From positions 1,488,001 to 1,552,000 of the forward strand of contig NZ_AP014879.1 of NCBI RefSeq assembly GCF_002355735.1: a DNA stretch of 64,000 bases. Reading direction: 5' to 3'. Numbering within the stretch: the first letter of the stretch is position 1; each line of letters opens with the position of its first letter. Below the pieces are notes generated by a model. It saw only the letters and a list, made by a program, of their open reading frames with translations. It searched no databases and had not been told where the DNA came from. Shown piece after piece: positions 55,246 through 58,167 of this stretch. The translations under genes were made by a program, and so were the position numbers. The DNA is from Sulfuricaulis limicola. Lineage in GTDB: Bacteria > Pseudomonadota > Gammaproteobacteria > Acidiferrobacterales > Sulfurifustaceae.

Positions 55246-56853
55246 ATGATATACACCCATAAAACAGTCTGGACTCTGATCCTCGGGATCATCATGGTCG
55301 CCTTCGGTTATCTGGTGCAAGCCGGCGTCCTGAATCCGATGATCGAGTTCCTCAATATTTCCAAGTATGTCGGCAAGCCCGAGTCACCGGGTGAAATGAT
55401 CATCCTTCCCTTTGTCTGCGGCATCATTGCCATCGTGGTGGGACTGTGGCAATTCGCGGTGAAACCAAAGCAAGGCAATCTCGATTACTACCTCTCCACT
55501 ATCGGTGGCGTGATGTTCATCCTGATCATCGCCTTCGTCGTGAAGTGGGGTCTCGATCCGCTGATGGGCGTGTGGGGCAAGGCGCTCAAACCCACCCTCG
55601 GTTTTGACATCCATAGCGTCATGAACCTGAACTACGTGGTCATGGGCATCCTCGCCGGCATCATCGCGGTCAACGTGTTCAGCATTCCGGGGTGGGCGGA
55701 AAACGGCGTGCGCCTCTCGCGCCTCGGCCTGAAAACCGGCGTGGTGCTGCTGGGCGTGCTCTACAGCTGGCAGGAACTGGCCAATCTGGCCGGCCTGTCC
55801 GTCGTCATGATTGCCATATTCGTGCTGGGATCGGTCGGCATGGTGCTGTGGATGGGCGCGCGGCGCAACATCCCCAACTCCATGGGCGGCGTGCTGTCAG
55901 CCGGCATGGGCGTGTGCGGCGTCTCGGCCTCGGTGGCGGCGGCGCCGGTGGTCAACGCCAAGTCCACGGAAATCGCCTACACCATCGGCACCATCCTGCT
56001 GTGGGGCGTGCTGATGATGTTCATCTTCCCGATCGTGGGCAAACAGATGGGCATGAACCCGACGCAGTTCGGCGCCTGGGCTGGCACCGGCATTCTCAAC
56101 TCGGCGCAGGTGGCGGGCGCGGCGCTGGCCTTCGAACCGGGCGGCATCGACACCCTCAAGGTGGCGGAGATCTTCAACATCACGCGCATCCTGTTCCTGC
56201 CGATTATCGTGCTGTGGCTGGCGGTGTGGTATGTGGAGCGCGAATCCGGCGCCCAGAAGGTCAGTCATGGCAGCGTGATCTTCAGCAAGTTCCCGCTGTT
56301 CGTGCTCGGCTTCATCGTGATGTTCGTGCTCGGATCCACCGGCATGTTCGCGCCCGGTTCGGAGCTGCCCGGCAAGTACTTCGACAACAGCGAGAAGCAT
56401 CTGGTGAAGAAAAATCCGGACGGCACCGTCAAGGAAAGCAAGATGCTGGCCGACAAGGATGCCGAGCTGCTCAAATCGGAAGCCGGCAAACTGACGGACG
56501 AGACACAGAAAGGGGCGCTGGCCAGCCTGCTCGAAAACAAGAAGGCCACCTCGTTCGAGCATGATCGGCAACTGGCTTCGATCATGAACTCGCATGTGCT
56601 GTCGGTGAAGGCCAACAAGGTCCTGAAGAGCATGCACAGCGCGGTGTATAAACCTGCGCCGCGCATCTCGAAGTTCCGGGACATCATCGCCTGGTTCTTC
56701 ACCTTCGGCCTGGTCGGCCTGGGCATGCAGATCACCATGACCTCGATCAAGCAGGCCGGCGGGCAGCCGTTGATCATCGGATCGGTGGTCGGCACGGTCA
56801 AGGCGGTCGGATCGCTGATCGTGGTCTGGCTGTTCGTGAAAGAAATCGTTTAA
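55246..56853 (+). CDS. YeiH-family putative sulfate exporter, enlarged
   Basis: 535 residues; typical YeiH/UPF0324 proteins are about 340. About ten TM helices with the family core GVCGVSASVAAAPVVNAKSTEIAY, then AWAGTGILNSAQVAGAALAF. Additional parts: three TM helices at the N-terminus (about 8-100) and a charged soluble insertion (about 375-475, KKNPDGTVKESKMLADKDAELLKSEAG and following) before the last two helices. The family is annotated as sulfate/sulfite export in sulfur metabolisers but is weakly characterised. A site AGGAGA precedes the ATG. A candidate promoter (TTGAAT 55146, TGC-TATATA 55171, 19-base spacing) lies in the 165-base gap upstream. Confidence 0.85.
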   Translation: MIYTHKTVWTLILGIIMVAFGYLVQAGVLNPMIEFLNISKYVGKPESPGEMIILPFVCGIIAIVVGLWQFAVKPKQGNLDYYLSTIGGVMFILIIAFVVKWGLDPLMGVWGKALKPTLGFDIHSVMNLNYVVMGILAGIIAVNVFSIPGWAENGVRLSRLGLKTGVVLLGVLYSWQELANLAGLSVVMIAIFVLGSVGMVLWMGARRNIPNSMGGVLSAGMGVCGVSASVAAAPVVNAKSTEIAYTIGTILLWGVLMMFIFPIVGKQMGMNPTQFGAWAGTGILNSAQVAGAALAFEPGGIDTLKVAEIFNITRILFLPIIVLWLAVWYVERESGAQKVSHGSVIFSKFPLFVLGFIVMFVLGSTGMFAPGSELPGKYFDNSEKHLVKKNPDGTVKESKMLADKDAELLKSEAGKLTDETQKGALASLLENKKATSFEHDRQLASIMNSHVLSVKANKVLKSMHSAVYKPAPRISKFRDIIAWFFTFGLVGLGMQITMTSIKQAGGQPLIIGSVVGTVKAVGSLIVVWLFVKEIV

Positions 56854-56877
56854 CGCAACTTTCCGCGAGGTGCAATC

Positions 56878-57000
56878 ATGAAAGAGAAATTTGATCGTGG
56901 TACGGCGCTGACGATATTCCGCAACGACCGCATCGAGGACATCGGCGCCCTGGTGCTGTCATTGATCATCGCGTTCCTGGTGTACAATTTTGTCAGCTGA
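56878..57000 (+). CDS. 40-residue single-pass membrane protein
   Basis: An open frame of 40 residues, starting ATG at 56878 with GAGGTG 6 nt upstream and ending TGA at 56998-57000. A basic N-terminal part (MKEKFDRGTALTIFRNDRIED) is followed by one TM helix (IGALVLSLIIAFLVYNFVS). It starts 24 bases after the transporter stop and ends 20 bases before a strong terminator, so it must share the transporter transcript. Likely an accessory subunit or regulator (inference). Too small to assign a family. Confidence 0.7.
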   Translation: MKEKFDRGTALTIFRNDRIEDIGALVLSLIIAFLVYNFVS

Positions 57001-57020
57001 TTAGACGCTGAAAAGAACCG

Positions 57021-57058
57021 CCCCGGTGGCCGGTCTAACCGCCACCGGGGTTTTTTTT
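57021..57058 (+). terminator. Strong intrinsic terminator after the YeiH-like pair
   Basis: A perfect 10-bp stem (CCCCGGTGGC / GCCACCGGGG) with a 10-base loop followed by eight T residues. It lies before the universal stress gene, so downstream expression needs read-through or a further promoter. Confidence 0.95.
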
Positions 57059-57077
57059 GAAATACGGAGACATAACC

Positions 57078-57545
57078 ATGGCCAAACCGAAACATATCCT
57101 GCTCGCCAGCCACAATACCGAAGGCGCGCGGGCGGCGGAAAAACTGGCCTATTCCTTCTGCGGTCCCGGCACCACCCTGCATCACCTCATCGTGGTGCCG
57201 GATTTGTGGAAAGGCATGCAGGGCGATGACTGGCTCAACAACGCCTCGACGCGCGACACCTTCGGGCGCTATGTCGAATCGCAACTGGAGGAGGAAGTCC
57301 GCACGCACCTGAAACGCATGTTGAGCGAGATCAAGAAACGCCGCATCCGTTATCGCTACGAGATGGTGCAGGGAAAACCAACGGAATGCCTGATCCGGCG
57401 CGCCGCCAGAGGTCCGACGGATCTCATCGTGCTGGGTTCGCCGCGACCGAAAGGCCAAACGGGCCTGCGCTCGCGCATGCTGGATGAAAAGCTGTTCCGG
57501 TCGCTGCGCGTGCCCGTGGTGATCGCGCCCTACCCGCATGACTGA
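57078..57545 (+). CDS. Universal stress protein family
   Basis: 155 residues from the ATG at 57078 (GGAG 8 nt upstream). UspA fold: KHILLASHNTEGARAAEKLAYSF at the start and the nucleotide-binding G-loop variant at the end, DLIVLGSPRPKGQTGLRSRMLDEKLFRSLRVPVVIAPY. The ATP-binding pattern G-2x-G-9x-G-S is altered (no clear GS), so ATP binding is uncertain. It overlaps the next gene by 8 bases. Confidence 0.88.
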   Translation: MAKPKHILLASHNTEGARAAEKLAYSFCGPGTTLHHLIVVPDLWKGMQGDDWLNNASTRDTFGRYVESQLEEEVRTHLKRMLSEIKKRRIRYRYEMVQGKPTECLIRRAARGPTDLIVLGSPRPKGQTGLRSRMLDEKLFRSLRVPVVIAPYPHD

Positions 57546-58167
57546 AAACGGCCAGGAACCGGCATCGGCATCCCCGGTGAATTCCGCCGATGCCGCCTGG
57601 GTCAGCCTCCCTGCGCCTTTCCCGCCGGATGAGCTGCATCGGCACTGTCGCGATATCGAAGTCCTGTTTCGTCTCAATCCCTATTACTACTTCGATGTCT
57701 GGCGCCAAACCGGTTCAGACACGTTTCATGCCGAGTTTGAAAATCAGAGCAATCAGACGCGTCAAATACTGGACCTGAGAATCGAAATAAATTCCGGGCA
57801 CGGCATCACCGTCAATTACAACGGCGGGATCAAGAAATGTACCGTGTTCACCATCGAGCCGACGCTGCAAGGCAGTCGCATGACCGTTACCGACGATTAT
57901 GATCTGTTGCCGGTAACGGAACGCGAGGAACGCAAAGCGGAAGTGGACAGGAGTCTCAAGGCCTGGGCCGAATCGCTGCGACTGTATTTCCTGCGACGCA
58001 AGCGCTGGTCATGGCTGCCGGGCTGGCGCTGGTATATCCGCCGGGTGTGGATGCCGATGAAGCCCTCCACGCGCCGGATCGTGTGGTTTATTTACCTGAT
58101 TTCCGTGGCGGAGTTTTTCTTTTTCCTGTTCGTGCTGCTGATCTGGCTCGTCGAACAGGGGAATTGA
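57538..58167 (+). CDS. SRPBCC-like protein with C-terminal membrane anchor
   Basis: 209 residues. An N-terminal START/polyketide-cyclase-like domain (about 22-150; DIEVLFRLNPYYYFDVWRQTGSDTFHAEFENQSN, then a beta-rich stretch ending GSRMTVTDDYDLLP), then a basic helix and one or two TM helices (about 178-205, WFIYLISVAEFFFFLFVLLIWLV). The fold call is by eye only. It is translationally coupled to the universal stress gene (8-base overlap); whether both belong with the YeiH transporter is not certain because of the terminator between. Confidence 0.65.
   Translation: MTENGQEPASASPVNSADAAWVSLPAPFPPDELHRHCRDIEVLFRLNPYYYFDVWRQTGSDTFHAEFENQSNQTRQILDLRIEINSGHGITVNYNGGIKKCTVFTIEPTLQGSRMTVTDDYDLLPVTEREERKAEVDRSLKAWAESLRLYFLRRKRWSWLPGWRWYIRRVWMPMKPSTRRIVWFIYLISVAEFFFFLFVLLIWLVEQGN

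Follow-up and report, generated by a model that had tools for sequence, protein, structure and literature searches.

Within the window, the whole 64,000-nucleotide stretch analysed here from the genome of the sulfur oxidiser Sulfuricaulis limicola, four consecutive forward-strand genes encode a transporter of the PF03601 family (hereafter T), a 40-residue micro-protein, a Usp-like protein and a predicted helix-grip protein. From its gene content and its distribution across genomes, this cassette looks like a previously undescribed multi-part transport machine. The sequence-only reading of this DNA had described a 535-residue YeiH-type ORF followed, after a gap of 24 bases, by a 40-residue ORF, and both were present (55246-56853 and 56878-57000). 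Additions to that reading are the Usp-like and helix-grip genes that follow, the sister cassettes in other genomes and the placing of a terminator-like hairpin inside the cassette.

We propose, at about an even chance of being right, that the four genes specify an oxyanion transporter of the elevator type, which needs a single-pass subunit and is served by two regulators in the cytosol. T itself would be a secondary transporter that belongs to the CPA/AT superfamily (PF03601), works as an elevator and moves a small oxyanion outward, and the exported oxyanion would probably be sulfite or sulfate derived from cytoplasmic lithotrophic sulfur oxidation. The micro-protein would be an obligatory single-pass subunit whose membrane helix packs against T and whose juxtamembrane motif (RG..L..F..DR.ED..AL) attaches to T or to the regulators, and this docking may set the stability or gating of T. 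The membrane-anchored helix-grip protein would serve as a ligand sensor and the Usp-like protein as a nucleotide sensor, both acting from the cytosol to gate T as substrate load or energy state changes. We infer the physical complex, the topology of the micro-protein, the gating, the direction of transport and the substrate.

Family, motifs and predicted fold of the transporter

T (55246-56853, + strand, ATG start, 535 residues) matched PF03601, the putative sulfate exporter family, at 164.3 bits (E = 4e-48; Pfam cut-off 24.5) and was the only PF03601 gene found in the S. limicola genome (one contig, 2,864,672 bases). The YeiH-type motifs quoted in the sequence-only reading correspond to its residues 222-235 and 280-293. 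Against TIGR00698, the YeiH model, T scored 80 bits (best match at residues 127-366), below the cut-off of 232.6. In the second reentrant region T has GTGILNSAQV in place of IHEVAQV, a motif linked to YeiH here through 19 HEV-type PF03601 sequences. In an alignment that also took in 32 other PF03601 sequences (two representing the same place, hence 31 distinct loci), ten cassette-type transporters shared GT[GA]ILN[ST]xQ[VL] and NI[TMV]R, whilst 19 of the 32 were YeiH-like, with [IV]HE[VIT][AG]Q and a Lys, 12 had SE[LF]ADAAG and one had neither motif. The His-Glu of IHEVAQV and the Lys of AKLxR, common to HEV-type members, are Asn-Ser and Asn in T, so the YeiH substrate need not carry over. The ILN group also stood apart from the remaining PF03601 sequences in the tree (local support 0.926). 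A distinct subfamily for T, apart from orthodox YeiH proteins, is supported by its TIGR00698 score below the cut-off, by the ILNS motif and by its position in the tree; the sequence-only reading had raised this possibility.

Structural prediction agreed with the earlier description of three N-terminal helices and a charged insertion of about 100 residues. The AF2 model of T (mean pLDDT 76.6) placed N-terminal helices at about 9-26, 50-71 and 78-118, and the insertion, ~105 residues at about 365-471, formed four short helices. In VIA comparisons, NHE, NapA, AspT, CitS, PIN and ASBT were among the best matches at Z 11-13, a range in which, for helical proteins below ~13, Z may reflect a common arrangement. 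This included NapA (Z 13.1, rmsd 4.0, 264 aligned), CitS (Z 12.1, rmsd 5.5, 301 aligned) and ASBT (Z 11.2, rmsd 4.4, 236 aligned), and the best 50 matches were NHE, Nap, NHA, SOS1, AspT, CitS, PIN or PIN-like, ASBT, NhaP and KefC chains. Foldseek gave weak matches, the best being CitS (E = 0.016). A CPA/AT elevator-like fold, shared with CitS, NapA and ASBT, is therefore likely for the modelled T. Compared with YeiH and SuyZ of the PSE family (TC 2.A.98, PF03601, TIGR00698), T shares the PF03601 domain, the predicted CPA/AT-type fold and a CG[AV]SA motif; it differs in falling below the TIGR00698 cut-off, in having ILNSAQV for IHEVAQV and NI[TM]R for AKLxR, and in adding the N-terminal extension, the ~105-residue insertion and three partner genes. 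Pfam hits to Tower (0.02) and PspB (0.38) were dismissed as chance.

The available text of one study gives PF03601 proteins 9 or 11 helices with the N-terminus inside (PMC8396727), a topology under which the insertion of T would fall in the periplasm; the loop charges of T do not contradict this placement, nor are they decisive. In the same source, the 11-helix form PSE_2 resembles T in having extra N-terminal helices before the PF03601 core, and the description available there does not mention an insertion or partner genes like those of the cassette (PMC8396727). On plasmids, only distant PF03601 relatives were found, and none of 50 records reached 80% coverage of T. Four transporters from outside the class (L192-L195) have an extra ~35-42 residues after about profile position 45.

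The micro-protein and its association with the transporter

The micro-protein gene (56878-57000, + strand, ATG start, 40 residues, one predicted membrane helix) begins 24 bases behind T and is preceded by a GAGGTG ribosome site, in line with the good ribosome site reported earlier. Among long-type relatives the corresponding gap is 8-32 bases (90 in L129). The motif FDRGxAL[ST]IFxxDRxEDxxAL lies at and before the start of the membrane helix.

Relatives were gathered by searching with the transporter alone, and conservation was counted over 69 distinct transporter C-termini, with L095 and L112, which end at a contig edge, set aside. A micro-protein match was found downstream in 58/58 distinct long-clade transporters whose contig continues, a set that includes T fragments (L025, L051, L054, L056, L148 and L197) and some loci from near-identical species, and in which the micro-ORF of L054 is frameshifted. 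The sequence-only reading had staked the partnership on this conservation and on codon-level constraint, and it withstood both comparisons. Across four close relatives, pooled pN/pS was 0.17 for the micro-ORF and 0.23 for T, against 1.6 and 2.6 in the shifted frames of the micro-ORF DNA; over all 990 pairs the ratio was 0.35 for both genes, with synonymous sites near saturation. The micro-ORF is thus under purifying selection at the codon level and is not a chance ORF. Twelve columns were invariant in 33 sequences, and in 45 sequences M1, G8, L11, F14, D17, R18, E20, D21, A24 and L25 were invariant, with R7 kept in 44 and V35 in 43. R7, L11, F14, R18, D21 and L25 map to one helix face, a stripe that would fit docking. 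Distances of T and the micro-protein were correlated (r 0.73, 45 pairs, 0/2000 permutations as high), as common descent alone would also give. Outside the 58-locus set, a broken second long-type transporter (L134, G020:C86) had no micro-protein match in its locus.

Some variation accompanied this conservation. In the micro-ORFs of L123, L124, L148 and L190 the motif is preceded by a longer N-terminal extension that includes an acidic stretch (such as DIDLQEE or IDIHEE), and several micro-proteins from outside the class end in GHG. A broken long-type transporter remnant (L147, G057:C35) had no micro-protein match in its locus.

A class sample of 369 genomes, drawn irrespective of the cassette, gave a concordant distribution. 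The long transporter (E < 1e-140) occurred in 21 genomes and the micro-protein in 18 of these; in the other three (G241, G269 and G413) the contig ends inside T. Strong micro-protein matches (E < 1e-5) occurred in 20/369 genomes, all with a long or short transporter, the other two (G293 and G371) lying behind a shorter sister transporter, and no strong match lay away from a long or short transporter in this sample. Weak micro-protein HMM hits in G065, G289 and G385 (E 0.003-0.009) were set down to chance, as they fall inside long ORFs at loci without a transporter match. At the 32 loci (31 distinct; ~3.6 kb each, six of them inspected over 8-12 kb as well) of other PF03601 members, no micro-protein, Usp or helix-grip match was found, which within this sample indicates that the ILN-type motif and the micro-protein go together.

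This pattern strongly supports the micro-protein as a dedicated partner of T, as far as comparative genomics can speak to it. Of the earlier claim of a dedicated subunit, it is the partnership that the 58/58 count, the second Sulfurifustis variabilis copy described below and the lack of strong stray matches in the class sample strongly support; an integral subunit of T, the physical part of that claim, would be the best reading of the micro-protein. Alternatively, the micro-protein may not be a partner of T at all, and may instead serve the Usp-like or helix-grip protein or be a small membrane peptide of a regulatory or toxin-like kind. It is indeed a small hydrophobic peptide whose gene adjoins that of the Usp, and a membrane helix is present in the helix-grip protein too. 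T is, however, its sole constant partner. The second copy in S. variabilis (L131 in G011, C1:2515897-2517619) has T and the micro-protein without Usp or helix-grip genes, in a locus reaching 9.5 kb past T, and its micro-protein differs from that of the first copy at few positions, near the C-terminus. In addition, a micro-protein is present in 7/7 loci of a short sister clade, none of which showed a helix-grip gene further downstream (in one, the contig stops shortly past Usp), and in L114 a micro-like ORF lies upstream of T. We therefore consider a role apart from T very improbable. Known single-pass proteins of about 30-50 residues, such as KdpF and AcrZ, work with large transporters and resemble the micro-protein by description; the latter differs in having a conserved charged juxtamembrane motif.

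Contacts were also modelled by AF2 on a tandem chain in which the T stop codon was read as Gly. Among the stretches listed, 18 (two representing the same place) had a gap that keeps the frame and contains a single stop; the alignment held 17 tandem rows and 21 transporter-only rows. Both the linker and the beginning of the micro-protein motif fell below pLDDT 50, and the short tether may misplace the motif across the membrane. The YeiH C-terminus is predicted to be periplasmic in the available text of PMC12880088, and if that of T is likewise, the tether would be on the wrong side. The tandem model was consequently set aside as evidence of contact.

Usp-like and helix-grip genes and the sister cassettes

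The strong terminator that the sequence-only reading placed after the micro-ORF corresponds to a hairpin followed by eight T (57020-57058, + strand), between the micro-protein and Usp genes, which may act as a terminator or an attenuator; the gene set extends past it, to the Usp-like and helix-grip genes. This element was found by a custom script and is not listed by a stock terminator scan. A hairpin with T run occurred in 33/59 rows, which include duplicates and six short-clade rows (0/6 with a hairpin), compared to 11/305 random 110-base windows, and as this control is mostly coding, part of the excess may reflect intergenic versus coding DNA. Its frequency suggests that, in many rows, expression of T and the micro-protein may be separate from that of the Usp and helix-grip genes.

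The Usp-like gene (57078-57545, + strand, 155 residues) encodes conserved GDDWLNN and GSPRPKGxxGLRSRM motifs. The protein scored 22.4 bits (E = 2e-4) against Pfam PF00582 (Usp), below the cut-off of 24. The family profile matched the Usp structures MJ0577 (2.5e-10) and TeaD (3hgm, 3.3e-6), making a Usp-like fold likely. In the TeaABC-TeaD system, as in the cassette, a Usp-type protein is encoded together with a secondary transporter. TeaABC is a TRAP transporter, whereas T belongs to the CPA/AT type by its predicted fold, and we know of no micro-protein or helix-grip partner of TeaABC-TeaD.

The ATG start codon of the helix-grip gene (57538-58167, + strand, 209 residues) overlaps the Usp stop. 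Its product, a predicted cytosolic START/SRPBCC-like domain with a C-terminal membrane helix, had no match in Pfam (E <= 10) or NCBIfam (E <= 1), and hits of its profile to dual-specificity phosphatases (E about 0.2) were dismissed as chance. In the AF2 model a helix-grip fold (pLDDT 93) leads into a long C-terminal helix. Foldseek matched the model to START-like proteins with E down to 2.9e-6; 152 hits reached E <= 0.001, and the best 50 had TM-scores of 0.40-0.70 when normalised by target length. On these grounds the model places the protein in the START/SRPBCC helix-grip fold. An Arg/Lys-rich stretch before the C-terminal helix argues for a cytosolic location of the domain. START/SRPBCC proteins such as TcmN, PYL and CoxG-like proteins share this predicted fold; the cassette protein differs in lacking a Pfam match, in its C-terminal membrane anchor and in having strong matches only in genomes with T across the class sample. 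There, strong matches (E < 1e-30) were found in 19/369 genomes, all 19 with the long transporter, and weak ones in G255 (1e-7) and G292 (5e-4).

Gene calling and clustering of 41 stretches of up to 19 kb showed a constant order of T, Usp-like gene and a gene for a protein of ~205 residues, whilst the other neighbours varied. The genes surrounding the cassette in the window, which we take from their sequences to be sdh, ygfZ and enolase genes, recurred in some of these stretches only. Usp was present in 56/58 long-clade loci, the exceptions being L131 and L046 (contig end), and the helix-grip gene in 54/58, being missing also from L192 and L194 (same genus). This near-exclusive association indicates that, on genomic grounds, both genes belong to the cassette of T and the micro-protein. 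In the open-access literature covered, mostly as titles and abstract openings, no small-protein, Usp or helix-grip partner of the PF03601 family was found.

These results bear on whether T is simply an ordinary YeiH-like sulfite exporter, in which the micro-protein helps assembly in a general way and Usp and helix-grip are bystanders in a convenient operon. The core fold and family of T are those of PF03601, and the hairpin often found between the two gene pairs would suit bystander genes. Set against this are the missed TIGR00698 cut-off, the separate ILN group, the lack of partner matches at the other PF03601 loci and the restriction of strong helix-grip matches to genomes with the long transporter in the class sample, and we regard this explanation as quite unlikely.

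Related forms of the cassette were also apparent. A short sister clade comprises seven transporters that lack the insertion and measure about 390-415 residues. Each is followed by a micro-protein (MTLF[KR]DDRxED[WI]GAI), between about 50 and more than 80 residues long, with Usp right behind; a helix-grip gene was found downstream in 0/7 of these loci, one contig ending soon after Usp. In L034 (4974-9554) and L110, a long cassette is found only a few kilobases from a short one; both have a micro-protein and a Usp of their own, and the two appear to be paralogous sister systems. A third form, L114 (G255), has the weak micro-like ORF upstream of T (E = 3e-4, small search space), with two Usp-like ORFs and a diverged helix-grip-like gene downstream. 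Profile searches covered Pseudomonadota genomes, and in a phylum sample of 398 genomes seven carriers lay outside the class (G509, G475, G487, G522, G585, G589 and G558), with the micro-protein and Usp in 7/7 and the helix-grip gene in 5/7.

Gene content of carriers and the putative cargo

Genes of sulfur oxidation were frequent among the 21 class-sample carriers, in comparisons that ignore shared ancestry. aprA occurred in 19/21 carriers (one a fragment under the cut-off) compared to 21/70 random non-carriers (Fisher, p 1e-6), dsrA in 18/21 compared to 19/56 and soxB in 19/21 compared to 23/56. The 70 random genomes replaced a hand-picked control set (7/22 with a strong aprA match), since some of the latter had been chosen for a distant PF03601 gene; for dsrA, soxB and RuBisCO, 56 of the 70 were used, those dropped being hand-chosen blind to the results for these families. 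RuBisCO was found in 19/21 carriers (weakly in G100, 2e-22) and 24/56 random non-carriers, an enrichment near that of the sulfur genes and likewise blind to ancestry. By gene content, the carriers thus appear to be mostly sulfur-oxidising autotrophs. G324 had only soxB and RuBisCO of the tested families. AMO was sought in 31 cassette or sister-cassette genomes only. G376 has the full cassette, RuBisCO and three AMO-family genes of equal score (C1:1118406, 1697424 and 3589033), with no strong aprA, dsrA or soxB match, and on this basis looks like an ammonia (or methane) oxidiser and a clear exception to a sulfur-only role.

Published work on relatives of T points towards sulfur, as far as the available text of each source goes. 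YeiH protects Salmonella from sulfite (PMC12880088), a YeiH was the gene most affected by thiosulfate in Hyphomicrobium, and YeiH and TauE are treated there only as candidates for the exit of cytoplasmic sulfite or sulfate from sulfur oxidisers (PMC11582611). Given these ties of relatives to sulfite or thiosulfate, and since most carriers have genes for producing cytoplasmic sulfite or sulfate, we favour a sulfur oxyanion over bicarbonate or another anion as the predicted cargo of T. The same complex could instead move inorganic carbon (bicarbonate) or another anion in chemolithoautotrophs, as the RuBisCO enrichment (19/21 compared to 24/56, G100 weakly at 2e-22), the apparent ammonia or methane oxidiser G376 and the departure of the T motif from that of HEV-type members would allow. 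G413, however, has no RuBisCO match and G100 only the weak one, both having aprA, dsrA and soxB, and Salmonella YeiH, a PF03601 member with phenotype data, acts in sulfite stress (PMC12880088). We judge this other cargo unlikely. A further reading is tentative, and we would sooner doubt it than adopt it: the cassette would represent a new kind of regulated oxyanion transporter of lithotrophs, made of several subunits. It would combine a PF03601 pump of the ILNS type, altered in its coupling or substrate chemistry, with a micro-protein subunit that it cannot do without and with paired cytosolic sensors for a ligand (helix-grip) and a nucleotide (Usp), plausibly serving the exit of cytoplasmic sulfite or sulfate in rDsr/Apr sulfur oxidisers.

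The micro-protein, the membrane-anchored helix-grip protein and the distinctive Usp represent three uncharacterised families tied to one transporter, which gives each a testable role. The exit of sulfite or sulfate from sulfur-oxidising cells seems poorly settled in the available text of PMC11582611, and aprA is present in 19/21 of the class-sample carriers. The cassette also offers a natural model for how a 40-residue protein can stay tied to a secondary transporter over deep evolutionary time.
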